Source: Paenibacillus sp. FSL M7-0420 (GTDB lineage Bacteria > Bacillota > Bacilli > Paenibacillales > Paenibacillaceae). From it: 64,000 bases of DNA. The position numbers and the translations under genes were made by a program. Positions 33,237 through 48,118 of the stretch are shown here, one piece after another (the first letter of the stretch is position 1; the number at the start of each line of letters is the position of its first letter). The notes beneath the pieces were generated by a model. It saw nothing but the letters and a program-made list of their open reading frames with translations. It searched no databases and was not told the DNA's origin. Location: the NCBI RefSeq assembly GCF_038002345.1, contig NZ_JBBOCJ010000001.1, positions 7,440,001 to 7,504,000 on the forward strand, given 5' to 3'.

Positions 33237-33419
33237 TATGCAGATTTAATATTGTGAACATCATAACAGGGATGCCCGGGATTAAATTCGTGTATACTAG
33301 GGTATGAAGTATAGAAAGGTAAATTTTACTTGAAATGATTAGCTGTTCAATAGGACAAGGCATACATATATGCCAGCGGCATAGGAATGCTGCGGAGCGG
33401 AGAAGAGAAGGTGACGAAC

Positions 33420-36401
33420 ATGATAACACAGGAAATTTTACTTGATTTCATGCGGGAGACCGCTTATAAACCACTAACTTATGAAGAACTGGTGAGCCAT
33501 TTCGCAATTGAGGATAGTGCTGAATTCAAGGCCTTTGAGGTCTTGCTGATTGACCTGGAAAAGGACGGCCGGATCATATTGACCCGGGGTAGCCGTTATG
33601 GTGTGCCTGAGCGGATGGATCTGCTGCGCGGACGGCTGCAGGTTCATGCCAAGGGCTTTGCTTTTCTGATTCCCGATAACCGGGAGCACCCGGATGTGTA
33701 TATCCACGCGAACGATCTGAAGGGTGCTATGAACGGCGATATCGTCTTGATCCGTATTACCTCGAAGAGCCCGTCCGGCGGGCGAATGGAAGGCGAAGTG
33801 GAACGGATTCTGATCAGAGGCGTGTCGCAGACGGTGGGGGTCTTCCAGAGCCTGGAGACCTATGGCTTCGTGCTGCCTGATGATAAGCGGATTAACCGGG
33901 ATATTTTCATTCCCAGGGAGTCTTTCAAGGGTGCGGTTGACGGGGAAAAGGTGGTTGTCCGCATTGTGAACTATCCGGAGGGCCGTGCTGCGGCTGAGGG
34001 TGAGATCATTGAGATCCTTGGCCATAAGGATGATCCGGGCGTGGATATTCTGTCGGTCATCCGTAAGCATCAGCTTCCGGAGGCTTTTCCGGCTGAGGTG
34101 ATGACGGAAGCGGAGCAGGCGCCGGATTCCATCACGGATGAAGAGATTATCGAGCAGGGGCGGCGTGATCTGCGCGGGCTCAATATCGTAACCATTGACG
34201 GCGCAGATGCCAAGGATCTGGATGATGCGGTCAACGTAGAGCGTCTGGAGAATGGCCATTATAAGCTGGGCGTTCATATTGCTGACGTAGGCTATTATGT
34301 GCGTGAAGGCTCTGAGCTGGACAAGGAAGCCTATGACCGCGGATGCAGTGTATACCTGGTGGACCGTGTCATTCCAATGCTTCCGCACCGGCTGTCGAAC
34401 GGGATCTGCAGCTTGAACCCGCAGGTTGACCGTCTGACGATGTCCTGTGAAATGGAATTCGACGAGCAGATGAAGGTCGTGAACCACGATGTCTTCACCA
34501 GTGTCATCCGTACGAAGGAGAGAATGACCTACTCTGATGTACGGAAGATTGTCGAGGATGAAGATCCTGAGCTGCTGGAGCGGTATGCTCCGCTGATCGG
34601 GGATTTCCGGCTGATGAAGGAGCTGGCGATGAAGCTGCGCGGTGCACGGATGCGGCGCGGTGCGGTGGATTTCGATTTTGAAGAGAGCAAGATTATTGTA
34701 GATGAGGCCGGTAAGGCTATCGATATTGTAAAACGTGAACGCTCTGTGGCGGAGCAGATTATTGAAGAGTTCATGCTGGTCGCCAATGAGACGGTGGCGG
34801 AGCACTTCCACTGGCTGAAGGTTCCGTTCCTGTACCGGATTCATGAGGACCCGGACCCGGAGAAGCTGCAGAACTTCATGGCTTTTGCGGCTAACTTCGG
34901 CTACCACGTGAAGGGCCGGGGGAATTCGGTTCACCCGCGCGCGCTCCAGGATCTGCTGGAGCAGATTCAGGGAACGAAGGAGCAGACCGTCATCAGTACG
35001 ATGATGCTGCGCTCCATGAAGCAGGCGAAGTACGATGCCGAGAGCACCGGGCACTTCGGGCTGGCCGCAGAGTTCTATTCCCACTTCACCTCACCGATCC
35101 GCCGTTATCCCGATCTGGTGATTCACCGCGTCATGCGCGAGGTGCTTGAGAATGGCGGAGCGCTGACCGAGAAGCGCCACGAATATCTGGCCTCCCGGAT
35201 GCCGGATATTGCCCAGCAGTCCTCGGAGCGTGAGCGTGTGGCTGTTGAAGCCGAGCGCGATACCGAGCAACTGAAGAAAGCAGAGTTCATGCAGGACAAG
35301 GTTGGCGAGGAATTCGACGCCATGATCAGCAGCGTGACCAGCTTCGGGATGTTCATCGAGCTGGATAATACGGTCGAGGGTCTTATTCGCCTTAGTGCGC
35401 TGACGGATGATTACTACCACTTCGATGAAGCTCATATGGCGCTGATCGGCGAGCGTACCTCCAAGGTCTTCCGCATCGGCGATGAAGTGAAGATCCGCGT
35501 AGCCAAGGTCAACATGGACGACCACACCATCGACTTCGAGCTGGTCGATATGAAGCCGCGCGCAGCCGGAGACCACCGGAGCTACGGCGGACGCGGCGGC
35601 AAAGGCGGCCGTCCGGGCGCAGGAGGCTTCAGCAAGCCGTTCGCCGGTAAGGCCGGAGGCGGCAAAGGACGCGGTGGGAAGGGCAAGCCCGGCAGCGCTG
35701 CTGCCGGAGGCAAGAGTGGTGTTGCCAAGGGCAAGAACGGCGCCATCTTCGGGGCTGGCGGTAAGGGGAAGAACGGCGGCGCAGGTGCCGCTGGTAAGAG
35801 CAAGAACGCTTCTGCCGCGGGCGGCGGGGAAGCGGCTGGTGGCTTCGGCGGCGCTGAGTCTGGCGCCGGGAACGGGCCGCGCGAGGGCGGAGCGGCGGCG
35901 TGGGACATCGCCGGCGCAGCAGGCAGCGGCCGCAAGCGCGGGCGCGGGCCGGAAGCGGCAGCGCGGCGCGGTCTTGCCGCCGCAGGCGCAGCGGGCGGCG
36001 GCAAGGCGGACCGCCGGGGCGAAGCCGGCGGGTCTGGCGCTCCGCGCGAGGGCGGCAGAGGCCGCGGCGCGGAGGCCGGTGGCGGTGCCGGGGGACGCGG
36101 CATCGCCTTCGGCTTCGGCTCGGGCAAGGGCGGCTACGGCGCGCCGGGCGGTGGCGGGTCTGAGCAGGCGGGCGATGAGCTGCGCGGCGTAGACGCGGGC
36201 ACACGGTTCCGCAGCCGCGAGGACCTGGGAGCCGAAGGGCGCGGCGCAGCGCCGGAGGGCAAGGGCCGCCGCAAGAAGAAGGGCGGCGTGTTCATTAGCC
36301 CCTCCGTGACGCCAGGCAACGGGGATTCTGCAGGCCAGGCCGGTGCTGACACTGGCGAGAAGAGCGGGCGTCGTAAGCGTAAGAAGAAACCTAAGGCGTA
36401 G
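33420..36401 (+). CDS. rnr: ribonuclease R with very long Gly/Ala/Arg/Lys-rich C-terminal tail
   Basis: RNase R is a processive 3'-5' exoribonuclease that acts with SmpB-tmRNA on non-stop mRNA. The order is an N-terminal winged-helix (about 1-70), cold-shock domains, the RNB catalytic domain ([17 protein letters not shown] with the catalytic Asp residues, about 250-580) and an S1 domain (about 625-705). From about residue 715 to 993 the protein is a low-complexity tail rich in Gly, Ala, Arg and Lys, ending [13 protein letters not shown]. Usual RNase R has 770-815 residues, so the tail adds nearly 200. Its DNA (35560-36380) is far more GC-rich than the rest of the gene. ATG at 33420 follows AAGGTG. 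Confidence 0.95.
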
Positions 36402-36579: not shown

Positions 36580-37059
36580 ATGGGTAAAAAAGCAGACGGG
36601 AAAGTGCTCGCCCAGAACAAAAAAGCTTCCCATGACTATTTTATTGAGGACACCTACGAAGCGGGTTTGGTTCTTACAGGAACAGAGATCAAATCGCTGC
36701 GTAATGGCCGCGCTAACATTGGGGATGCGTTCGCAACGATCCGTAATGGCGAGATTCATATCCACAACATGCATATCAGTCCTTTTGAACAGGGAAACCG
36801 TGCCAATCCTACCGACCCTACGCGCACGCGTAAGCTGCTGATGCATAAGGAGCAGATACACAAGCTGCTGGGCTCTTCCAAACGGGATGGCTTCACCATT
36901 GTGCCGCTTAAGATTTATGTGCGTAATGGCTACGCCAAGCTGCTGATTGGTCTGGGTAAGGGGAAGAAGGAATACGACAAACGGGATTCCGCCGCGAAGC
37001 GTGACGCCCAGCGTGATATCCAGCGTGTGCTGCGCGACAAACAGAAGGTAGCCAGATAG
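36580..37059 (+). CDS. smpB: SsrA-binding protein SmpB
   Basis: SmpB binds tmRNA and brings it to stalled ribosomes. The 159 residues contain [33 protein letters not shown], and a basic C-terminal tail ([16 protein letters not shown]) that enters the mRNA channel. The ATG at 36580 has AAGGAG ten bases upstream. It lies just before ssrA, its RNA partner, and after rnr, which degrades the released mRNA. Confidence 0.96.
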
Positions 37060-37141
37060 ACTGACTTCTGCACCCGGCGACAGGTAGTTCCAGATTCAAC
37101 CTTCAATTCCTTTAACCTGCGTGTTAAAGTGTTGATAAATG

Positions 37142-37150
37142 TGCTATACT
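37142..37150 (+). promoter_or_regulatory. extended -10 promoter of ssrA
   Basis: TGC-TATACT is an extended -10 element (TG at 37142-37143, box 37145-37150). The mature tmRNA starts about 110 bases later, implying a processed 5' leader. Confidence 0.5.
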
Positions 37151-37262
37151 GGGTAAGTAGATTTTTTGCTTCTGAACAGCCATCTTAAGTCAGATCGCTG
37201 TGTACCGGATCAGCATTTGTGCTTGTCATTGATCCGTTAATCCGAAGCGCCCTTTCTAATGA

Positions 37263-37624
37263 GGGGCCGTTCTTGGATTCGACGGGGATAGTTCGAGCAT
37301 GAGTAGCGAGTAGTGGGGACGCGTCCGCTTCATCAACGCTAAAGCCTATTAAACGGCAAACAACAAAACAACTACGCTTTCGCAGCCTAAGAAACTGTGT
37401 GCGTGCTTCTACTCTGCATCGTCCATGTGACAGGGCTAGGGGCTAACAAATAGTGGAATACGCTGTCTCATCTCCGCCTGGGGTGAGCTGAAGAAGATAA
37501 TCAGGCTGACCCGAAGGGGACCCGGTTACGGGGGGCTTCTAGGGTGACATCAAAACTGTAACTACACTCGTAGAAGCTTATGTGCCGTTATCTTCGGACA
37601 GGGGTTCGACTCCCCTCGGCTCCA
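37263..37624 (+). ncRNA. ssrA: transfer-messenger RNA (tmRNA)
   Basis: The 5' end GGGGCCGUUCUUGGAUUCGA and the 3' end with GGUUCGACUCCCCUCGGCUCCA form the alanyl-tRNA-like part; GGGGCCG pairs with CGGCUCC, including one G-U pair. CCA is not encoded. The tag frame runs GGC AAA CAA CAA AAC AAC TAC GCT TTC GCA GCC TAA, so the degradation tag would be (A)GKQQNNYAFAA. The RNA is about 362 nt. Its 3' end is the insertion site of the island that follows. Confidence 0.96.
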
Positions 37625-37625
37625 T
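37604..37625 (+). repeat. left attachment core inside the tmRNA 3' end (attL)
   Basis: The 22 bases covering the T-loop and acceptor strand of tmRNA are repeated exactly at 43263-43284, and 18 of them (GACTCCCCTCGGCTCCAT) again at 46200-46217. tmRNA 3' ends are known targets of tyrosine recombinases. The DNA between the copies is AT-rich and accessory. Confidence 0.85.
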
Positions 37626-37627
37626 CC

Positions 37628-37656
37628 AAAAAACCCGCTGAAATCGCGGGTTTTTT
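37628..37656 (+). terminator. terminator of ssrA
   Basis: AAAAAACCCGC and GCGGGTTTTTT pair around TGAAATC. Because it lies beyond the att core it may have been supplied by the island. Confidence 0.92.
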
Positions 37657-37674
37657 GCTGTCTTTAGGTTGAGT

Positions 37675-37691
37675 TGTAGACCAATGTAGAC
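37675..37691 (+). repeat. paired TGTAGAC direct repeats, left end of island
   Basis: TGTAGAC occurs at 37675-37681 and 37685-37691, one helical turn apart, 50 bases inside the left att core. The same pair occurs at 43108-43125 near the right core. They resemble recombinase or excisionase arm sites; that role is inferred. Confidence 0.5.
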
Positions 37692-37725
37692 ATGGGAATA
37701 TTGAGGAGCTATTTGTTCCCTTAAT

Positions 37726-37744
37726 TGTAGACATGCTGTCTACA
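37726..37744. repeat. perfect TGTAGACA palindrome
   Basis: TGTAGACA-TGC-TGTCTACA is a perfect inverted repeat and is the third TGTAGAC copy near attL. It could be a recombinase-accessory site or an operator. Confidence 0.55.
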
Positions 37745-37772
37745 TCTTAAATAAGATCATTCGTTCTGTTAA

Positions 37773-37798
37773 AATTACTCCACGTGTGTGGAGTAATT
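37773..37798. repeat. 11-bp perfect inverted repeat in the island leader
   Basis: AATTACTCCAC and GTGGAGTAATT flank GTGT. There is no T-run, so it is not a terminator. It lies 68 bases before the promoter of the DUF262 gene. The stretch 37657-37956 holds only this repeat, the TGTAGAC sites and the promoter; I see no gene or integrase remnant. Confidence 0.55.
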
Positions 37799-37862
37799 AC
37801 TGTTGCTAGTAAAGAAATACTCATTTTTAATCCATATTTATCCTAAGGATTATTGATCATAG

Positions 37863-37871
37863 TGGTATAAT
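37863..37871 (+). promoter_or_regulatory. extended -10 promoter of the DUF262-HEPN pair
   Basis: TGG-TATAAT forms an extended -10 element (TG at 37863-37864, box 37866-37871) 85 bases before the GTG start. Confidence 0.5.
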
Positions 37872-37956
37872 CTGTATAGATTAAACTTCTTTGATGTTTA
37901 AGAATACAAGCAATAACCAAAGCTAAATAAGACAATTTATAAGGAGGACTACTTCT

Positions 37957-39060
37957 GTGAACACACTGAAAAAAAACTTAGTTGAATTGCAACAACTGGC
38001 TAAAGAGCGGACTGTTAAAACGCAAAGCATTGAATATGATTTAGAGACTTTGGTGAAAAAAGTTAATAGGAAGACAATTAAGCTTGACCCAGAGTACCAA
38101 AGGAATCATAGATGGAATGCAGAAACATCTTCAAAGTTAATTGAAAGCTTAATTCTAAATATTCCAGTCCCATTGGTATATTTATCTCAAGATGTGGATG
38201 TTGATGATGAGGCAGATGACCTGGCTAGATACTCAGTAATTGATGGTCAACAACGGTTAACAGCTATTTTTAACTTCATGACAAACGAGTTAGTTTTAGA
38301 AGGGATGGAAGTATTAAAACCACTAAACGGGTCAAGGTATAAGGATTTACCACCGTTTCTAATAAGAAGATTAGAGGAGAGAACAATTAAGTGTTTAAGA
38401 ATCGATTCAACTCTCGACCCACAAGTGAAATACGATATATTCGAGAGATTGAACTCCGGGTCTGTTAAGCTTGAAGCACAAGAATTAAGAAATGCGATTT
38501 ATAGAGGGCCGTTTAATAAGCTAATAAAGGATCTTGCTAAGCATGAAGATTTCAGAGTTTTGAACCAAATCAACATGGATAATCCAGATGAAAGTAAGAA
38601 GGTTCAAAAAATGGAAGATGTAGAACTGGTTCTTCGTTTTTTCGCTTTACAGAATAACAACTATAAAAATTTAAAAAAGGGATTTAAATTGTTTCTTTCT
38701 GAATCGATGGAGGAATTTAATAAGTTATCAGAAGATGAAATACAAGGACTTAGAGATAAATTTCTAAAAACAATGAAAGTAATAAGAGAAAACTTTGGGG
38801 ATCAGGCATTTGCAAAGTATAGATTCGAAAATGAAGAATTTATCAAGATGTCTAAATTTAATGCTGCAGTATTTGATGCATTAGCAATAGCTATCGTAGA
38901 TAGTCTTGACTTAGATTCTCCTGTCTTTTCAAAACTAAATAAGGTTAGTTTTCAAGAGTTATTCAAAAAAGAGAAATTTTTTGATACAGTATCAGGAAGT
39001 GTAAATGATAGAGAAAAGGTTTCTACACGAATTGATACTGTCAAGGAGCTGCTCAAATGA
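37957..39060 (+). CDS. DUF262 (GmrSD N-terminal / ParB-like) domain protein
   Basis: The 367 residues have the DUF262 core: the PEYQRNHRWN segment (45-54), the hallmark DGQQRLT (96-102) and FERLNSGSVKL with the following polar helix. In GmrSD and SspE-type proteins this domain is a ParB-like NTP-dependent nuclease or sensor module; here the DUF1524 HNH-type nuclease domain usual in GmrSD is absent. GTG at 37957 follows AAGGAGG. It overlaps the next gene by four bases (ATGA), so the two are coupled. AT-rich codon use sets it apart from the backbone. A defence or toxin-control role is inferred from family and context. Confidence 0.85.
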   Translation: MNTLKKNLVELQQLAKERTVKTQSIEYDLETLVKKVNRKTIKLDPEYQRNHRWNAETSSKLIESLILNIPVPLVYLSQDVDVDDEADDLARYSVIDGQQRLTAIFNFMTNELVLEGMEVLKPLNGSRYKDLPPFLIRRLEERTIKCLRIDSTLDPQVKYDIFERLNSGSVKLEAQELRNAIYRGPFNKLIKDLAKHEDFRVLNQINMDNPDESKKVQKMEDVELVLRFFALQNNNYKNLKKGFKLFLSESMEEFNKLSEDEIQGLRDKFLKTMKVIRENFGDQAFAKYRFENEEFIKMSKFNAAVFDALAIAIVDSLDLDSPVFSKLNKVSFQELFKKEKFFDTVSGSVNDREKVSTRIDTVKELLK

Positions 39061-39917
39061 GTTCTTCACACAATCCTTTCAACACTGATATTACGGAATT
39101 CAGCACTTTTGCTTCTCTTTTTATTGAAGAGTTAGAGGAGCGATGGACTGAGATAGAGATACTTATAGAGCAAATAAAAATACAAAGTAACGATGAGGTG
39201 AAAAATGTACTTTGTAGATCTGCTGTAGTCCTATTGGTGGCTCATCTGGAAGGATTCATGAAAGAAGCTGCTTCCACCTTTATTAAGGACTTAAACCACC
39301 ATTGTGAGTTTATAGAATTGCCAAAACGTATTCAAAAAACTTATTGCACATTATTTTTATCAACTGTAAATGATAGCGGAGGTATTGATAATAGAATACA
39401 AGGTAGATTACTAGAAAAATTTGGGGAGTTAAATGCTCGACTTACGGTAGAACCATTTTTATATGATCGCAACAAAAATCCTTCTCCTACAGTAATTGAA
39501 ACTATTCTTAATAACTTTGGAGTAAAGGATTTCTTTAAACTGTTACATATGTCTTCACTAGATATTGTATTTGAAAATAATAGCTCAGAGACATTGATAT
39601 TTCTAGAAGAGTTAAGAGAATATACAATACAAGCAGTTGAAAAATTTCCATATAACATAAATTTAGAAAATTATGCGATTTCGATTAAAGATGGAAGATT
39701 AGCAAGGGAAAATTCTTTATGGATATTATTTATAGACGAATTGTTAAGGAAAAGGCACTCTATTGCGCATGGTTCGAATTTTCGAAATGAGATATCTATA
39801 AATGAACTTGAGGATGCAAAAATAAAGGTCCAGATACTACAATATTCAATTGCACTGGTATTATTTAGTTCAGGTATTACAATTCCATCTCCAATGCTAA
39901 ACGATTCTTTGCTTTAA
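39057..39917 (+). CDS. HEPN-like (MAE_28990/MAE_18760-type) putative RNase
   Basis: The 286-residue helical protein has a C-terminal RHSIAHG (Arg233 to His238), the R-x4-H motif of catalytically active HEPN ribonucleases. The N-terminal helix AVVLLVAHLEGFMKEAA resembles MAE_28990/MAE_18760-like HEPN proteins that are often encoded next to DUF262 proteins. The four-base overlap with the DUF262 gene and the strong terminator that follows define a two-gene unit. Likely reading: HEPN is an RNA-cleaving effector and DUF262 its sensor or partner; this is inference and not known for this exact pair. Confidence 0.78.
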   Translation: MSSSHNPFNTDITEFSTFASLFIEELEERWTEIEILIEQIKIQSNDEVKNVLCRSAVVLLVAHLEGFMKEAASTFIKDLNHHCEFIELPKRIQKTYCTLFLSTVNDSGGIDNRIQGRLLEKFGELNARLTVEPFLYDRNKNPSPTVIETILNNFGVKDFFKLLHMSSLDIVFENNSSETLIFLEELREYTIQAVEKFPYNINLENYAISIKDGRLARENSLWILFIDELLRKRHSIAHGSNFRNEISINELEDAKIKVQILQYSIALVLFSSGITIPSPMLNDSLL

Positions 39918-39999
39918 AGTAACACTGATATTCTAAGAGTAATCTTGAAAGAAATAGATATATATTATAATAATGATACCTAGTCGATAGGTAGTCCTA

Positions 40000-40038
40000 A
40001 ATGAAGGCCATACACATTTACGTGTATGGCCTTCATTT
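40000..40038 (+). terminator. strong terminator after the DUF262-HEPN pair
   Basis: ATGAAGGCCATACAC and GTGTATGGCCTTCAT pair perfectly around a short loop and are followed by T. Confidence 0.92.
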
Positions 40039-40119
40039 TTCTCTTGCAATAAGCGGACTAGAGCAAGATTAGTGGGATGCAATCGATGATCTAAAACTAA
40101 GATAACGGAGGTTTCATTA

Positions 40120-40734
40120 ATGCTAACACAACGAAATATTGAGCTGAAGTCACTACTAACTAATTCTTTGCGTGAAAAACAAGGAAGTTATTTAATTGAA
40201 GAATTAATGAATTCGTTTCCCTTCCATCACAGACCTTATAGAGGTTACTGAGCAGGAGCTAATCTCAATTAGTGGTATAGGGCCACACAAGGCCCGACAG
40301 ATTGAAACAATACTAAAGTTGGCAAGGACACTTATCGTGCCGGATATAGATTTTCCGGCTATTCGCAAACCTGAGGATGCATATCATTTACTTGAGCCGG
40401 AGCATCGATATAACACCAAAAAACATTTTATATGCCTGTATCTCAATACAAAGAATCGTGTAATACACAAGGAAACGATCTCTATAGGCTCTCTTAACGC
40501 TTCTATCGTCCATCCGCGAAGTGTCAAAGTTGAAATCAAAGCTCCTGTGCCTCAATCATTTGTTCTCATTCACATCCGAGTGGCGATCCTACTCCTTCGA
40601 ATGAAGATCTGATTATTACCCATCGTCTTATTGAAGCCGGAGAAATTATTGGTATCGATGTATTGGATCATCTGATTATTGCCGGACAAAGATATGTGAG
40701 TTTAAAGGAACAAGGATTAATGGCTCGTGCTTAG
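40120..40734 (+). pseudogene. decayed RadC/JAB-domain gene
   Basis: Three frames together encode a RadC-like (DUF2466, JAB/MPN) protein. ATG at 40120 gives MLTQRNIELKSLLTNSLREK, then a frame change near 40230 leads to TEQELISISGIGPHKARQIE (the HhH part) and a long stretch with ICLYLNTKNRVIHKETISIG. A second shift near 40570 restores [12 protein letters not shown], the metal-binding end of the motif, up to the TAG at 40734. Two indels make it non-functional as written. Such radC-like genes are typical cargo of integrative elements. Confidence 0.82.
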
Positions 40735-40968
40735 GCATCTTTTAAGATATGAAACGCACTGATCATTACTTTATATACTAATAAGAGACTTGGCTAGATA
40801 GGTAGATAAACCAGCAAAATTAACAGATAAGTAAAGATGCGCTAATAATGTAGAAAGAGATAAACTACCAGCAGGTGAAAAGGAGTTTTCTGGCGAATAT
40901 TGTAATAACTGAATCTAAGTTAATTGTATTGTTCGAATCATGAAATAGTAACTAAAGGGGAAATTAAC

Positions 40969-43009
40969 TTGAGCATACTAAGTGAAAAGGCAATCTTAAA
41001 TACCGAAGATGTTTTAATGAAAATCGAAGAATACTCCTCTCAAGAAGCAGTATCTCCGTTTGCTAAATTAAATTTAAAGCTACTAAAGAATAGTATTCAA
41101 AATAAACACGGACTTAACATGGAAACAAAACATGACTTAGTCTTTATTGGAAAGACGAGAGTCGGGAAAAGCACAAACTTGTGCAGTATATTTAATTTTT
41201 ATTATTACGAGGGTAATAAGAAACTACAGATGCTACCTGCCGATACCGGAGGTACAACTACGCCTTGTACTGTTGAGATTGATAATTTTGAGGGAGCAAC
41301 TTACATTGAAGTAACTAATATAGATAATCAAATGCTTCAAAAATATCTTAAAGTGTTTATTCAAAAAAAAATTGATAAGGATAGTGTAGAATCATTGCCT
41401 GAAGAAATTCAAGCTATAATTAAAAGGAAGATAGGGAAAGAAACGATAAGTCAGATTGAAAGTATTGAGAATCCTGTTCAAGCTGTTGATTATATTTTTG
41501 AAAATACGAAGATAGAATATACTAATGAATTAGTTTGTTTATCCCCTGAGGATGAATGTGGAGATATTAATTCTACATTCAAATGGGTTAAAGAAACGTT
41601 AGATAACATAAGGCATGGAAAGGTTGAAGATGTATTCATACCGTTAAAAATAGTTATTCATATATCCAAGAAGGTTAGGCAACTTCCAGAATGGGCAAAT
41701 AAAATAGTTGACACTCGAGGAATTATTGGGGCAGATCTCAGCGAAGATAATAATGGAAGTAATTCAATTATGAATAGGGATGACTTAAAAGAATATATTA
41801 ATAATAAAAACAGCTATGTAGTTTTTATTACGGAATTTGCGGATATGGATAATAGTATTAAAGAATACTATAAAGAACTTCTAACTTCTACAGATTCGGA
41901 TATTTCAAGCACTTCGCGACATATGATTTTGATCAGCACGAAACCTGATATGGTAGATTCTAAGATAAGTGACGAGTATGAAAATGAAAGTGAGAAGGAA
42001 GGACTAAGAAGGATTGTGATAGCGGAGAAGGTAGAATCATTTGAGGGATCTGTCCTTGATTTTGTCAGCAAGCTTAAGGATAGTAATCTGGAAAGGGATA
42101 TAAAATCTCTCGAGATCTACACAAACTTAGTTGAAAAAGTTGATAGCTTTCAAGAAACAAAAATTAAATTGGTGAATCTTGTTTTGTTTGAGGCCAAAAA
42201 GTATTATCAGGAGGGTGAACTTGAAGAGGAACACTCTCGACAAATTCAAGGGGTTATATCCGATAAAATAAAAGTTATCCATAGTATTTTGGACAATGAA
42301 ATTAGAGATGCTTGCGAATTAGCAGTCTCAATTATTAAATCTAAAACAGGAAAGGACAGACCCAGTACAAGGCTTGAAAATGAATTAGAGACTTTTAAAA
42401 AATAGTATTATAAGTGAAACTGAAAAATCTATAGAAGTTTATATTGAGAAATATACATCAAGTTTTATTAACAATTCCTCTCTCTTTTCGGGGATGACTT
42501 GGAGAGCTTACACATACAGCTCAGGTTTTGTAATTTCAAGAGATGGCGATATAGTAGGAGATACTGCAGTAATAAGGAATGAAATTATTGAAGATCTATC
42601 CAGAGAAATAACACTTATCTTAAAGAAATCAACACAAGTTTTAGAATCAGACATGAAAGAATTAGTGTCGGATGAAGAACTTGTAATTTTTCTGGAATCT
42701 CTTAAAATTGATTTAATTGGTAGAGCAAAAGTAAACTTAATGAATGAACTTAAAATGCAGTTCGAAATAGAATTGAAGAAGCGTATTTTAAATCATGATT
42801 CTTTATGGGATCAAGTTCATCAAAAGCGTGAGAAATACGGTGATAAATATAGCGATATTGGAAAAAAATTGATTCGGGAATATTTAGATAGAGCTTTTGA
42901 AAGCAAGGAAATTAGTTATGATAGATATTATACTGACAACCTTGAGAAAGCTAAAAATGAAATTAGTGATAAACTGTTAGGTTCCCTGAATGGTAACGTT
43001 ATAGCATAA
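40969..43009 (+). pseudogene. dynamin-like GTPase split by a frameshift
   Basis: The N-terminal part (TTG at 40969, with AAAGGGG upstream, to a TAG at 42405; 478 residues) has a P-loop GKTRVGKS (61-68), a switch-I-like GGTTTPC, DTRG (248-251) as G3 and TKPD (324-327) as G4. The frame breaks in a run of six A at 42397-42402; one A fewer would continue directly into the frame that ends at 43009, adding about 205 mostly helical residues. The whole would be near 684 residues, with the plan of large dynamin-like GTPases, some of which act in phage defence. Sequencing error, phase variation or true decay cannot be told apart here. Confidence 0.75.
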
Positions 43010-43107
43010 CATGTATTTTTCTATAAAAATTGGAGTGCTTTCAGGTGGAGATGCTATAACACCAATTAATATATAGTAGTATTGCCTTGCAACTCCTGTC
43101 CGATTAT

Positions 43108-43125
43108 TGTAGACCCGATGTAGAC
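43108..43125 (+). repeat. paired TGTAGAC direct repeats, right end of island
   Basis: TGTAGAC at 43108-43114 and 43119-43125 repeat the pair found near attL. They lie about 140 bases before the 22-bp core. The rest of 43010-43262 shows no gene. Confidence 0.5.
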
Positions 43126-43262
43126 GTAAGCTATAAATCAAGCTAAGTAATTATAATTAGAAATACACAGATTAATAAGTAAATCTCAGTGAAGCCTTAC
43201 CTGATAAGGCTTTGTGGGATTGATTAAGTCGTTATGGGGCTAGTTAAAATTGAAAGACAGCA

Positions 43263-43284
43263 GTTCGACTCCCCTCGGCTCCAT
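43263..43284 (+). repeat. right attachment core, exact copy of the tmRNA 3' end
   Basis: All 22 bases match 37604-37625. It marks the right end of the first island (37625-43284) and is followed by its own terminator hairpin. Confidence 0.85.
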
Positions 43285-43291
43285 ATGACGT

Positions 43292-43331
43292 AGCGAAACG
43301 ACAGCAAAAGACGCTGTCGTTTCGCTTTTTT
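43292..43331 (+). terminator. terminator next to the second att core
   Basis: AGCGAAACGACAGC and GCTGTCGTTTCGCT pair perfectly over 14 bases and end in six T. It stands where an ssrA terminator would stand and may be the original one. Confidence 0.92.
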
Positions 43332-43333
43332 GT

Positions 43334-43435
43334 GTAAATGGCGGTTTTGCTGTTACCCAAGGTCCCCTCGTAATCGGCTTCGCGCTGGGTCAGTTAATTG
43401 TTTTTTTCTTTGCCTTTTACGGAGAACGTCGCTAA
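43334..43435 (+). pseudogene. hydrophobic C-terminal fragment of an unidentified membrane protein
   Basis: One frame, open only after 43289 and without a plausible start, reads GGFAVTQGPLVIGFALGQLI and ends with a charged YGERR before TAA. It looks like the last membrane helix of a transporter-like protein, left behind by deletion. I cannot name the family. The rest of 43436-43562 shows a TATAAT at about 43496 and nothing else I can support. Confidence 0.3.
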
Positions 43436-43562
43436 ATTATCCTAAAGGATTATACAGGGTGAAGCCATCGCTCAAAAATTCTTGGGTTCCATTCTGTATA
43501 ATTTATTGTATGGACAACAATTTTAGCTTTCGTTTAATACAACGAGTGCTGTACAGTGTATA

Positions 43563-43793
43563 ATGGAGATGGAGGTAATATATGTATTTCAAAAATTGGC
43601 AAGCGTGGATTTAGAATTAGTTCTGGAGATTCAAAATGTGCTGCGGGAGCAGTTTGGTGAGCGGGCGTCGGATATGCTGGTGAAGTCAGACTTTTTGAAT
43701 ATGTTGAAGAAGAACAGGGAGTACGTGTATCACTGCGATACTTTGTGCTGGGCCGAGGCCATTTCGGATAATTACAATATCAAACATTCGTGA
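43563..43793 (+). CDS. small hypothetical protein
   Basis: The 76-residue acidic, helical product (MEMEVIYVFQKLASVDLELV) ends with an aromatic and Cys-containing segment YVYHCDTLCWAEAISDNY. No family is recognised. The ATG at 43563 lacks a good ribosome site; the GGAGG at 43570-43575 would suit a start slightly downstream, but no clear codon is there. Base use is closer to the chromosome than to the flanking AT-rich genes. It may be a real small gene or a fragment. Confidence 0.45.
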   Translation: MEMEVIYVFQKLASVDLELVLEIQNVLREQFGERASDMLVKSDFLNMLKKNREYVYHCDTLCWAEAISDNYNIKHS

Positions 43794-43951
43794 TAATAGC
43801 CAGCCTGCTTATGAGGTCGGCTTCTGTTATTTCAGGTGGGCTCGCAAGAAATCTTTTTTAACGGAAGATCATCATCGATGGTTTCAACCTTAACACATAG
43901 ATATGGTAGAATAATCATAGTTATCATTGAATGATACTTAAGGAGGGGAAA

Positions 43952-44566
43952 ATGGTTTTATCAGAAATTAATCATTTGAATTTACCTGAAAAATATTTTG
44001 AAAATTGTATTACATATAATATTTTGAATTACTTTAACAACAAATTAGGATTTAAACTCTTCCCTTTTTCAATATCACAAAATATGGAACACAAATATGG
44101 ATTTGATTTTGGTTACAAATATATAGATGACTTTTTCGCGATACAGTACAAAAAACCTATATACGTAAATAATATAGCAAAATGGGCTATTAACATCGAT
44201 CAATTAAAGACAATCTTATCTATGGGGCTAGGTAAGAAAGTATATTATTGCTTTCCTGATTTTAATCGTGTGGATCTTTGGTATTTAGGTTTAGACTATT
44301 CTTTTTTCACAAGGGCTGACAGACTTTATACTTACTTAAACAATACTAGAAAAAAAAGTGTCAAAAAAGATGATCCCATTGTTCAAAATTGGAGTGAAAC
44401 TGTTAATGACGGTTTGCTAGGGCTAAAAAAGGAACATCAAACTATACTATCGATGCTAGATGAACTTAAAGATAATAATTTATACAATATTTTAAGCCAA
44501 ATTGCAGGGGCGAAGGAAGAACTAATTATTTTTTCAGTGTTGGAGGAACGGGATGAAAGAAAATGA
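43952..44566 (+). CDS. PD-(D/E)XK-like putative nuclease of an unassigned two-gene system
   Basis: The 204 residues contain Glu46, Asp52 in YGFDFGYKY, and Gln65-Tyr-Lys67 in FFAIQYKKP, an arrangement like the E...D...(E/Q)xK core of PD-(D/E)XK nucleases. The C-terminal half is helical. The ATG at 43952 follows AAGGAGGGGAA. It overlaps the next gene by 14 bases, which indicates coupled expression. It is strongly AT-rich. I do not recognise a named family; nuclease activity is a hypothesis from the motif spacing. Confidence 0.6.
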   Translation: MVLSEINHLNLPEKYFENCITYNILNYFNNKLGFKLFPFSISQNMEHKYGFDFGYKYIDDFFAIQYKKPIYVNNIAKWAINIDQLKTILSMGLGKKVYYCFPDFNRVDLWYLGLDYSFFTRADRLYTYLNNTRKKSVKKDDPIVQNWSETVNDGLLGLKKEHQTILSMLDELKDNNLYNILSQIAGAKEELIIFSVLEERDERK

Positions 44567-45947
44567 AATATTGGGTTATTTCTCCGCCAGAGACGACATA
44601 AACCTGAATTTAAGTAGTAATATGTATTATAATTTAGGGCTTCCCACCCTCATTCATGAGGCAAGTCATAAATTATTATGCTCAATAACTACATTAGGTT
44701 TTGTTGAATTCATCTTGTCAAAAGAATACGAGGTGTCTAAGGATGATTGTCACAAAAATCACTTGATTGAAATACTAAACCTGATATCGAAGTACTCAAA
44801 TTCAGTACATGAAATTTTTGCGAACAATCTAGAATTACTGCATATGCAATCAATATTAAATGATGATGAAGCACCACAGAAGTTATATCAGCTAAAACCA
44901 TCCCACTATAAAGAATATGTTGATAAGATGTCATTAATTACAAGTGATACGGGATTAACAATAGATGAAAAGAAACAAGTTATATTAAAAATGTGTGCTG
45001 GAGCGTTAAATATTGATATTTGTTGTGATGAATTTTTTGATGGGCTTCATGATGTCGAAAAGCTAAAACAATATTTAGATAGCAACGATCCGTTAGCTGT
45101 ACTTAATGATAATATTATTAATTATGCACAAAAAAGTAAATATACAAGTACAATTAGATCAATTGAAGAGTCCCTCCTTTTTTTAGATAAATCAACTGAA
45201 AAAGGTATTATTCATAGTGCTATAGATTTTGTGAATTTCATAAAAAATATTGATTTTGATGAACTTATTAATCACTTTGAGAAACTTGATTTTGAATTTA
45301 TGCATATTTCCAATACTAAAGTATATAGTTTTTCCAATTTTCAACCTTTAAGAGTACCTTCGAGCAGATTTAAAAAAGAGTCTTATGACCTTGTTTTTTT
45401 AGTAAAGAATTTTAAGATAAAAGGATATAAAAATATAGATGGTGATTACTATTTAGTTGCTCAGAACAAGCAACATAAGTATATATCAACTATTGTAAGT
45501 GAGAAATACATTAATAGGTTAATTAAAGAAAGTAAAATATATGGCTTATTGATTGATGGCAATGAGTTTTTGTTTGAAGATCATCAGCATATTACTTTTG
45601 AAGTGCCCGAAAACAAGCCAACATTCGTTATATTAGAAAATTATTTCATGGCGGAATATGCTCTCTCTCAAATGCTTAAGAAAAATAAAATCCTTTTAAC
45701 CACGATTAATGATGATAGGATTGGCTCGATATTTAGTTTTATTGCGTTTAGATTAGAAGATAATCCAAATATAATATTTTTATTCCCTACAATAAAAAAA
45801 ATCGCAGATAAACTAATCTTCAAAGAAGACCCTAATCTAAAAGTTTTGGGGGCAAAAAATGATGAATACTTACAAGTAATACCTTGGATTCTCGAGTTTG
45901 GAATGACATTAGTTTTTTTGTTTTTATCCAGAAATAAGTGGAATTAG
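44553..45947 (+). CDS. HExxH metallopeptidase-like protein of an unassigned two-gene system
   Basis: The 464 residues have LIHEASHKLL, an HExxH zinc motif at 35-39, and SVHEIFANN with Glu87 placed about 50 residues on, as expected for the third ligand of gluzincins. The middle (about 150-260) is helical and the last 200 residues form an alpha/beta region with a hydrophobic end (LVFLFLS). There is no signal peptide. The start codon lies inside the 3' end of the PD-(D/E)XK-like gene. The pair nuclease-like plus peptidase-like is reminiscent of protease-activated effectors, but no known system fits. Confidence 0.6.
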   Translation: MKENEILGYFSARDDINLNLSSNMYYNLGLPTLIHEASHKLLCSITTLGFVEFILSKEYEVSKDDCHKNHLIEILNLISKYSNSVHEIFANNLELLHMQSILNDDEAPQKLYQLKPSHYKEYVDKMSLITSDTGLTIDEKKQVILKMCAGALNIDICCDEFFDGLHDVEKLKQYLDSNDPLAVLNDNIINYAQKSKYTSTIRSIEESLLFLDKSTEKGIIHSAIDFVNFIKNIDFDELINHFEKLDFEFMHISNTKVYSFSNFQPLRVPSSRFKKESYDLVFLVKNFKIKGYKNIDGDYYLVAQNKQHKYISTIVSEKYINRLIKESKIYGLLIDGNEFLFEDHQHITFEVPENKPTFVILENYFMAEYALSQMLKKNKILLTTINDDRIGSIFSFIAFRLEDNPNIIFLFPTIKKIADKLIFKEDPNLKVLGAKNDEYLQVIPWILEFGMTLVFLFLSRNKWN

Positions 45948-45989
45948 AAATGAAAGATTAACAACCAACTCTGGCCACCTAATAACGGT

Positions 45990-46217
45990 TACCAGACTCT
46001 TACTCTCTATTGCCCCTGTAATGGGATAAGGGCTCAACTTTAGTAAGATACGTTGTCTGGTCTCCGCCTGGGGTCAGCAAAAGAATATAATCAGGCTGAC
46101 CCGAAGGGGACCCGGTTACGGGGGAGCTTCTAGGGTGACATCAAAACTGTAACTACACTCGTAGATGCTTATGTGCCGTTATCTTCGGACAGGGGGGCGG
46201 ACTCCCCTCGGCTCCAT
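45990..46217 (+). pseudogene. decayed 3' part of a second tmRNA (outer att remnant)
   Basis: From about 46060 to 46217 the sequence follows ssrA 37470-37625 closely, including CAGGCTGACCCGAAGGGGAC and the TAACTACACTCGTAGA stretch. Upstream, to about 45990, the match is weaker but still visible. The T-loop is damaged (GGGGTTCGAC has become GGGGGGCGGAC) and no 5' half is present, so it cannot be a working tmRNA. The length is far greater than a usual att core. It marks the outer right boundary of the accessory region. Confidence 0.85.
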
Positions 46218-46232
46218 ATGGAGTACAAGTAG

Positions 46233-46257
46233 AAGACACCTCATCAGGTGTCTTTTT
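46233..46257. terminator. terminator after the tmRNA remnant
   Basis: AAGACACCT and AGGTGTCTT pair and are followed by T on the plus strand; on the minus strand it lies just after the stop of the 46277-48118 gene and can serve that gene too. Confidence 0.8.
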
Positions 46258-46276
46258 CATTCCTGAGGATATTTAA

Positions 46277-48118
46277 TTAATTCCCTAGTACATAACAAGC
46301 CACTTCCCTTGGATGGCTAAGCGGAAAATGATGACCATACGGAACAACATCAACCTTACCAAGCTGCACTGGAGCAGAATAGCGCCGATCTTGATCTCCC
46401 CAAATAATATGAAGATTAGACCCCGGTACTTTGGTGGAATCCCTCTGATAGTTTCTCGACAGGAAACGGTTGAGCTGAAGAGTTGTATTTAAAATTCTAG
46501 GCGAAGTGAAGCTGCTGCGTACTTTGGCAATATAATGTTTCGGAATGCTCTCTGTATTTTCAAACAGACCGTTACCAATTAAATAACGTTCTAATGAACT
46601 AGCCGTTGCTAACTTTAATGCCCATTTGTTCAACATTTGAGGAGCAGTGAACGATTTGGAATTTTTTTTCGCAACAGGTGGCTGAAGTAAAGTAATCTTA
46701 TTATTAGTATCCAGGTACTCTCGTGCTAACGCTTCCAGCAGAATAACCGCTCCAAAGGAATGGCCAATCCAGTGTGCGCCATGAACAGCTCGTCCTGATA
46801 ACTCCTTCACTACATTCAAATAGAGATCCAGCAGATTCTTCTCCCGCTTAAAAGGGGACCGCCCTAAACCCGGAAGATCCGGAATCCATACCGGTTGACC
46901 CGTTTGTTCATGAAGCTCTAGTCCTAAAGGAAATAAATCGGCTCCATCACTGAGCAAACCGTGGAATAAAATAAAGGGCCTGCCCTCTCCCTGTATTTGA
47001 TACATCACAGTGTCTCCGATTAAGGTTCGTTCAAATGCATGATGATGCTGGTTATTGGGATACATCAAGCGATAATCCAAGTCTGCGACTACGGCCGGGA
47101 AAAAATTCATAACACTCGTCTTAGTAAACCAATCGGCTCCCATGATTTTTTTCGGTAAATCATTTGAAAAGGTTCTATTTGTAATAAAGTTCAGTCCATC
47201 CGATGGAATTTGTGTGATTTTACTGATTCCACTGTTCATAAGTGCCTTCATGAGGCGAAGCGGCACAGAGATTGTAGGTGCGGCCATATTCATACTCTCT
47301 GACATAATGCCTAATAATTCAGATATATCCGGGTCCAGCGGTTGGTCTGGAACAAGTGTATAGGTTTGAATAGACGATGGCTCCTGCTTAACAACCTGAA
47401 CGATAAACTTCGCCAGCGCATCGTTTGCAATTAGCGGTAATTTATACCCTTTGCCTCCCGGAATAACTGGCATCAGCCCTCTGCGCATACTCTCCACAAG
47501 CAAGCCTAAGCCTGCAACCTGCTCCGTACTCCCTGTTGTACTGCTGCCGATTACAGTTGGGGGATTAATCACAGACAGCGGATAGCCTATTGCCGATGCC
47601 TGCTGGCGAATATACAGATCTGCTAGAAATTTTGTTCTTTCGTAAGGGTTTTTTATTTTCAAATAGTCGTGCCCTTCTTGGAACACATCAATCGCAACCT
47701 TGCTATTAGTATCATCAAAGGGGGACATATATCCAACTACATGAATAAATTGCTGCAAACCTTTCAATTGGTGGATACGTTTAGCGAATTCACTGATATG
47801 CTTGGCACCGTTTAAAAATACAGAGGTTGCTTCTTGCGTTGTCGCTTGAATATCCATTTGTCCGCCGGCGTGAATAATAACATCTGTGCGTAGTACCCTC
47901 TCCTTATCTTCATCACTTAAACCTAAATCTGGTTTCGTCAAATCACCTTCAATAAAGTGCATCGCTGCCTCGTTAAAAATACCTTTTTCCTGAAAAGCAC
48001 GTGTTGCTTTACTTTTCGACCTCACTAAAAGAAAAATCATAACCTCCTCTGTAAGAAGCTCCTCAACGAGTTGCCTCCCGATAAAACCTGTTCCACCTGT
48101 TAATAATATTGTTCTCAC
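46277..48118 (-). CDS. thioester-reductase-like SDR fused to an alpha/beta hydrolase
   Basis: The 613 residues are a fusion. Residues 1 to about 330 form an extended short-chain dehydrogenase with LTGGTGFIGRQL as NAD(P)-binding motif and the catalytic pair Tyr159/Lys163 in NPYERTK, similar to male-sterility/thioester reductase domains. Residues about 370-610 are an alpha/beta hydrolase: FHGLLSDG, the nucleophile Ser454 in GHSFG, an Asp in WGDQD and His597. Lipid or aldehyde chemistry in the cytosol is likely, but the substrate is unknown. AAAGGAGAG precedes the ATG. It lies downstream of a TetR gene on the same strand, and a candidate operator sits 18 bases before its start. Confidence 0.85.
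   Translation of the reverse strand: MRTILLTGGTGFIGRQLVEELLTEEVMIFLLVRSKSKATRAFQEKGIFNEAAMHFIEGDLTKPDLGLSDEDKERVLRTDVIIHAGGQMDIQATTQEATSVFLNGAKHISEFAKRIHQLKGLQQFIHVVGYMSPFDDTNSKVAIDVFQEGHDYLKIKNPYERTKFLADLYIRQQASAIGYPLSVINPPTVIGSSTTGSTEQVAGLGLLVESMRRGLMPVIPGGKGYKLPLIANDALAKFIVQVVKQEPSSIQTYTLVPDQPLDPDISELLGIMSESMNMAAPTISVPLRLMKALMNSGISKITQIPSDGLNFITNRTFSNDLPKKIMGADWFTKTSVMNFFPAVVADLDYRLMYPNNQHHHAFERTLIGDTVMYQIQGEGRPFILFHGLLSDGADLFPLGLELHEQTGQPVWIPDLPGLGRSPFKREKNLLDLYLNVVKELSGRAVHGAHWIGHSFGAVILLEALAREYLDTNNKITLLQPPVAKKNSKSFTAPQMLNKWALKLATASSLERYLIGNGLFENTESIPKHYIAKVRSSFTSPRILNTTLQLNRFLSRNYQRDSTKVPGSNLHIIWGDQDRRYSAPVQLGKVDVVPYGHHFPLSHPREVACYVLGN

Follow-up and report, generated by a model that had tools for sequence, protein, structure and literature searches.

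An acquired, overlapping gene pair of no recognized family in an ssrA cassette of Paenibacillus, with a plausible metallopeptidase and a candidate nuclease

Downstream of the tmRNA gene (ssrA) of Paenibacillus sp. FSL M7-0420 lies a pair of overlapping genes that are real, acquired, and of no recognized family. The second gene plausibly codes for a peptidase, judging by its sequence, and the product of the first is a candidate nuclease. The reading favored here, possible though still doubtful, is that the cassette holding the pair is ssrA cargo and that the pair is a defense system whose small effector, possibly a DNase of the PD-(D/E)XK type, is under the control of a sensing zincin. At present the pair, an orphan with a single good motif, is of value as a candidate in a favorable location and not as a demonstrated system. 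All positions below refer to the window, that is, the whole stretch of 64,000 nucleotides that was analyzed, and ssrA, its partial copies, the two modules, and the features of module B are on its forward strand.

The gene pair and its two-module island

Two open reading frames (ORFs), at 43,931–44,566 and 44,553–45,947, share 14 bases, and the overlap suggests that the two genes are translationally coupled. Each has a ribosome-binding site. In gene 2, GGAGG stands 6 bases 5' of the ATG. In gene 1, the site AAGGAGGGG falls among the opening codons of the longer ORF, immediately 5' of an ATG at 43,952, so the start is more likely there than at 43,931. The initial annotation had used the longer ORF, which is present as described, but gene 1 probably runs from 43,952 to 44,566 and codes for a protein of 204 aa instead of 211 aa (protein 1, P0001). 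Gene 2 (44,553–45,947) codes for 464 aa (protein 2, P0002). The earlier description of an overlapping, strongly AT-rich pair held up in full, with both ORFs intact. The GC content is 28.6% over 43,952–45,947 and 26% to 33% in the 500-base windows wholly covering the pair, and it varies with codon position in a coding-type pattern (GC1 0.37, GC2 0.23–0.24, GC3 0.25). These values are far from those of the flanking gene at 46,277–48,118 (0.52, 0.38, and 0.39). ORFs of such length at such a GC content are, by our estimate, not due to chance; both are real genes, acquired and foreign in composition.

The integration target is ssrA at 37,263–37,624, recognized by ARAGORN and by Rfam (RF00023, 178.9 bits). 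The gene is intact, and fragments of its 3' end are displaced to two places downstream. One is a 29-bp copy of the 3' end at 43,256–43,284 (93% identical to ssrA), and the other is a 217-bp partial copy at 46,001–46,217 that corresponds to ssrA positions 148–363 (86% identical). Since the 3' end recurs at both places, the island consists of two tandem modules, A and B, which the 29-bp copy separates. The sequence 3' of the 217-bp copy is also found behind ssrA in several other genomes. The Islander paper (PMC4383910) gives displaced fragments as a known mark of islands in tmRNA genes, and the present island resembles those described there in that a restored target gene and a displaced fragment delimit its ends. 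It differs from them in having two tandem modules, neither with a PF00589 integrase. A profile search found 14 PF00589 matches in the host genome and none inside the window, and thus both modules are without such an integrase of their own; one of the host's 14 could serve the island in trans. The pair had been placed inside an island at ssrA, and this stands, with ssrA upstream and ssrA 3' repeats on both sides, but it occupies its own module within a two-module island.

That module, module B, spans 2.9 kb (43,285–46,217), with copies of the ssrA 3' end at both ends and the 217-bp copy forming the right one. Directly after the boundary repeat comes a terminator-like hairpin (43,292–43,326), a weak feature when taken alone, with 2 in the region versus 1.2 expected in shuffles. 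A 76-aa ORF follows at 43,563–43,793, and its GC3 is 0.58 versus 0.25 in the pair; relatives of it are absent from the other 99 genus genomes searched. Outside the ssrA copy, the DNA of module B matched none of the 80 other ssrA loci (E up to 1e-10), and the DNA at 43,285–45,950 found no match in the phage and plasmid records searched.

Module A (37,626–43,284) carries GmrSD_N, HEPN, broken RadC-like, and GTPase-like genes and ends in the ssrA 3' repeat. The GmrSD_N protein matches its Pfam profile at 2.1e-27 and the PADLOC profiles NsnA (3.1e-83) and PD-T4-2_A (3.4e-45), and the HEPN protein, of the RiboL-PSP/MAE_28990 kind, has a match at 1.4e-22. Another genome of the genus (G029; locus L081, 467–17,980) has an ssrA element of 17.5 kb whose left end aligns with window positions 37,629–40,748 at 99% identity over 3,125 bases. 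This element carries a tyrosine integrase, a probable primase-helicase with the domains D5_N and DUF5906, and a gene for a mutator-family transposase. On this comparison, module A is an integrase-less and much shorter relative of the G029 element. The RadC/JAB-like gene, named by eye, is broken in the window (40,000–40,800), and its counterpart in L081 is an ORF of 205 aa. The GTPase-like genes have no firm family in Pfam or PADLOC. One of them, at 40,924–42,405, has the P-loop-like stretch GKTRVGKST; this gene and the next ORF (42,494–43,009) may possibly be dynamin-like. All six exact copies of TGTAGAC in 37,001–46,500 lie close to the ends of module A (37,675–37,744 and 43,108–43,125). The paired form of this motif, with up to two mismatches, has four matches in the window versus 0.14 expected, of which two are a single place read on both strands and one is at 39,213. 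The copies are possibly arm sites of an integrase.

Motifs and the search for relatives

Close to its N-terminus, protein 2 has the sequence HEASH (residues 35–39; 44,655–44,669), proposed as a zinc-binding HExxH motif. It is followed 47 residues later by HEIFA and then N (residues 86–90; 44,808–44,822), in which Glu87 would be the third zinc ligand in an ExxAN context. In 100,000 shuffles of protein 2, HExxH by itself turned up in 2.7%, whereas HExxH with ExxA[DN] 20–70 residues downstream, a pattern that was picked post hoc, turned up in 0.04%. For a comparison with natural proteins, ORFs were taken from 81 ssrA loci of the genus, namely the window and 80 of the 99 other genomes searched (L052–L131, covering as much as 20 kb from ssrA in each). 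Of these ORFs, 521 have 300 aa or more; HExxH is found in 14 of them, and the full pattern, again as picked post hoc, in 2, P0002 included. The other is a protein of locus L068 with HELGHIILH...ENEANQFAAAFLLP, which by eye looks like an ImmA-type peptidase. P0002 is also the sole match to a pattern of the type LPxLxHExx[HT] in the ORFs of these loci.

Profiles tell a different story from the motif statistics. Residues 1–193 of protein 2 have no Pfam match at E up to 10. When P0002 and 1,000 of its shuffles were searched with an M78 profile built from 29 sequences from 30 loci, 646 sequences were reported, and P0002 ranked 153rd among them. In the same design with an M48 profile, built from the five best sequences among 30 fetched loci, it ranked 207th of 673. 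When the shuffles kept both motifs, the ranks were 226 of 721 (M78) and 321 of 722 (M48). The initial annotation had compared protein 2 to a gluzincin; the motif statistics speak for this, and the M78 and M48 profiles speak against it. The motif is non-random, with decent support from the counts above, and a peptidase is a plausible reading of the protein. An AlphaFold2 model made from the single sequence without an alignment has a pLDDT of 35.1 and is not interpretable. The outline it gives, with a helix-rich first half and strand-like stretches in the C-terminal part, is merely indicative because the pLDDT is 35.

In protein 1, the GFD...QYK stretch covers residues 57–74 in the numbering of the 211-aa form (44,099–44,152; GFD at 44,099–44,107 and QYK at 44,144–44,152), and a lysine-rich stretch lies further on. 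The pattern GxD-x(10–18)-[EQ]xK is found in 4.2% of 50,000 shuffles of protein 1 and in 17 of the 465 ORFs of 150–300 aa at the 81 ssrA loci, both of which are chance level. P0001 is the sole match in the ORFs of these loci to a pattern of the GxD...Q[YF]K type. Cap4-type PD-(D/E)XK nucleases (PF14130) have the order D...[EQ]xK in common with protein 1; profile similarity is absent: when P0001 and 500 of its shuffles were searched with a Cap4 profile of seven genus proteins, 497 sequences were reported, and P0001 came 112th. Protein 1 has no match to PDB sequences at E up to 10 and none to helix-turn-helix families in Pfam and NCBIfam, and its AlphaFold2 model (single sequence, no alignment) has a pLDDT of 33.3 and is not interpretable. 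The resemblance to PD-(D/E)XK nucleases that had been seen in protein 1 was thus not borne out, with the motif at chance level and the Cap4 profile negative. Both the zincin and the PD-(D/E)XK superfamilies include members without recognizable sequence similarity, so a lack of profile similarity does not count out either fold.

The pair had also been described as matching no defense or toxin family that can be named, and this proved right: the searches of Pfam, NCBIfam, PADLOC, and PHROGs gave nothing above noise. The weak library matches taken as noise were to DUF6272 in Pfam (0.045), in NCBIfam (0.056 and 0.41), and in PHROGs (0.017, 0.021, and 0.056), and a PDB match to a pentatricopeptide protein (0.012) was treated in the same way. 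Relatives were sought more widely in genomes. P0002 found itself alone in 100 genus genomes. It matched 59 of 394 family genomes at E up to 1 and 15 of 398 phylum genomes at E up to 0.1, its own included in both, with no credible relative; the best match to another family genome (0.004) is a response-regulator-like ORF. P0001 matched 23 of 295 family genomes at E up to 0.1, its own included and with no credible relative, and found itself alone in 398 phylum genomes. Nine loci with weak matches (L003 and eight others) were inspected by eye and hold enzymes, transport proteins, a regulator, and a transposase. The 80 other ssrA loci of the genus have no relative of the pair (best non-self E values 0.27 and 0.1), nor did the scans of genome contigs and viral contigs find one. 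With tblastn at E up to 10, plasmids and phages gave weak partial matches only. A motif scan of viral contigs returned three stretches, with no relative among them. In one viral contig, an ORF (L161, 3,008–5,035) has LPVLLHEASH, then an acidic region, and finally a VWA-like end; it is a putative metallopeptidase and by eye is unrelated to P0002. Families with LPxLxHEATH and Q[FY]K...VYYxxP were considered for the pair, and the searches recovered none of them. Since searches of this kind require shared words or fairly high similarity, a distant family could escape detection.

Possible roles of the pair

In the proposed mechanism, the module B cassette would have been acquired at ssrA, and the pair most likely would defend its host against phages or mobile elements, a role suggested by the neighboring genes. 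Protein 2 would most likely be an intracellular zinc metallopeptidase of the gluzincin type, with His35, His39, and Glu87 as the proposed ligands, and its long C-terminal part would sense infection or keep the enzyme inactive. Protein 1 would be the small effector, possibly a DNase of the PD-(D/E)XK type. When an infection is sensed, the peptidase would release or activate protein 1, and the cell would stop or die. This defense reading is favored because the genes overlap, have ribosome-binding sites, and differ in composition from their flanks; because the ssrA-bounded module adjoins GmrSD_N and HEPN genes; because the gluzincin-like motif is rare; and because PMC12799240 offers a precedent with the same gene order and a protease-activated nuclease. 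Counting against it, neither protein matches a peptidase or nuclease profile, the motif read as a nuclease's does not exceed chance, conservation of the motif residues or of the pairing is not shown by any relative, and both models have a pLDDT below 36.

This precedent, from 2025, is the closest published idea and is worth setting out. According to PMC12799240, nuclease-protease pairs occur in Hachiman, AVAST, Lamassu, and DRT systems, with caspase-nuclease pairs in canu loci. The gene for a pro-nuclease of the MBL fold is typically upstream of that for a trypsin-like protease, and in Hachiman and AVAST the protease cleaves and thereby activates the pro-nuclease. The pair described here is like these in having adjacent genes, with that of a putative nuclease upstream and that of a putative protease, with further sequence, downstream. 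It is unlike them in its enzymes: where they have trypsin-like or caspase proteases and MBL-fold nucleases, it has a putative zincin and a PD-(D/E)XK motif that is weak, and neither of its proteins has a Pfam or PADLOC match to any of those three kinds. In other conflict systems, zincins appear as rare MPTase effectors and peptide-processing enzymes (PMC7159879) and as inactive effector domains (PMC8195603). A pair of a metallopeptidase and a PD-(D/E)XK nuclease is absent from the titles and abstract openings of the literature searched, which is no proof of its absence in print. One could consider a bolder form of the defense reading, in which the pair is a so far unrecognized two-gene immune system, carried as a compact cassette of an ssrA array. 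A zinc metallopeptidase of the cytoplasm, equipped with a sensor region, would here switch on a nuclease of the PD-(D/E)XK type, and the system would be convergent with the trypsin- and caspase-activated nucleases. This is quite unlikely. The gating of nucleases by proteases has been described as an immune principle only recently, and the metallopeptidase version, if true, would mean that it had arisen anew from different enzymes and would offer a compact two-gene system for study.

Other explanations assign the roles differently. Protein 2 could itself be the effector, a zincin like the T4 exclusion protein Lit of E. coli that cuts a host protein upon infection, leaving protein 1 as a sensor, trigger, or inhibitor and no nuclease. 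It would fit that the peptidase motif is the sole motif with statistical support. Lit is described in PMC3506569 as a zincin-like metallopeptidase that acts by cleaving EF-Tu in T4-infected cells, and the present pair shares with it a proposed zincin-type motif, a location in a mobile element, and possible abortive infection. The likeness to Lit is one of description, and the present pair differs in having an overlapping second gene. Protein 2 has no sequence link to peptidase families, and this explanation is judged decidedly unlikely. The pair could also be a toxin-antitoxin or effector-immunity pair, or contain an RNase or another effector, with HEASH being structural or coincidental. A short gene overlapping a longer one amid defense-type neighbors would be in keeping with this, as would the frequency of HExxH alone in shuffles and ORFs. 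On the other hand, HExxH together with ExxA[DN] is far rarer than HExxH alone, and proteins 1 and 2 are both longer than those of typical type II toxin-antitoxin pairs; such a pair is unlikely.

The two remaining explanations start from the element and not from defense. In one of them, protein 2 is a regulatory protease of the mobile element, comparable to ImmA/ImmR and PprI/DdrO, which would cleave a repressor after DNA damage and thus control excision or the expression of cargo. The pair does sit in an integrated element, and its gluzincin-like motif ends in ExxAN, as does that of the L068 protein likened by eye to ImmA. The similarity to the ImmA/IrrE (M78) regulatory peptidases goes as far as this motif and the mobile setting, but there is no similarity to the M78 profile, and the motifs are 47 residues apart instead of the 21 in the L068 protein. 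The island has no PF00589 integrase to regulate and protein 1 has no helix-turn-helix family match, and a regulatory role is very unlikely. The other explanation makes the pair orphan cargo of an island that is immobile and decaying, where it drifts with no function currently under selection. Module A as a shortened relative of an integrase-bearing element, its broken RadC-like gene, the lack of a PF00589 integrase in the island, and the lack of relatives of the pair in the collections searched all point this way. Yet 204 and 464 codons stay open at the low GC content of the pair and the ribosome-binding sites are kept, and drift of this kind is highly improbable.

ssrA as a site for cassettes

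An ssrA match is present in all 100 genus genomes searched, although in two of them (G022 and G089) it is weak only. At least one further copy of the ssrA 3' end is found in 59 of the 81 loci. Of the 99 intervals between successive copies, 38 are shorter than 1.5 kb; with ORFs called mechanically and a minimum length of 80 aa, 25 of the 38 contain a single ORF. Displaced fragments are expected of islands in this gene; so many short intervals are less so, and they resemble a gene-cassette array a little. A literature search on ssrA arrays of this kind returned nothing among the matches listed. In this genus, ssrA is a recurrent hotspot for cassettes, and its locus looks rich in unnamed cargo, whatever the function of the pair may be. 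As a minor observation on the other side of ssrA, an ORF of 1,004 aa at 33,387–36,401, RNase R-like by eye, has a very long tail rich in glycine, alanine, and arginine.
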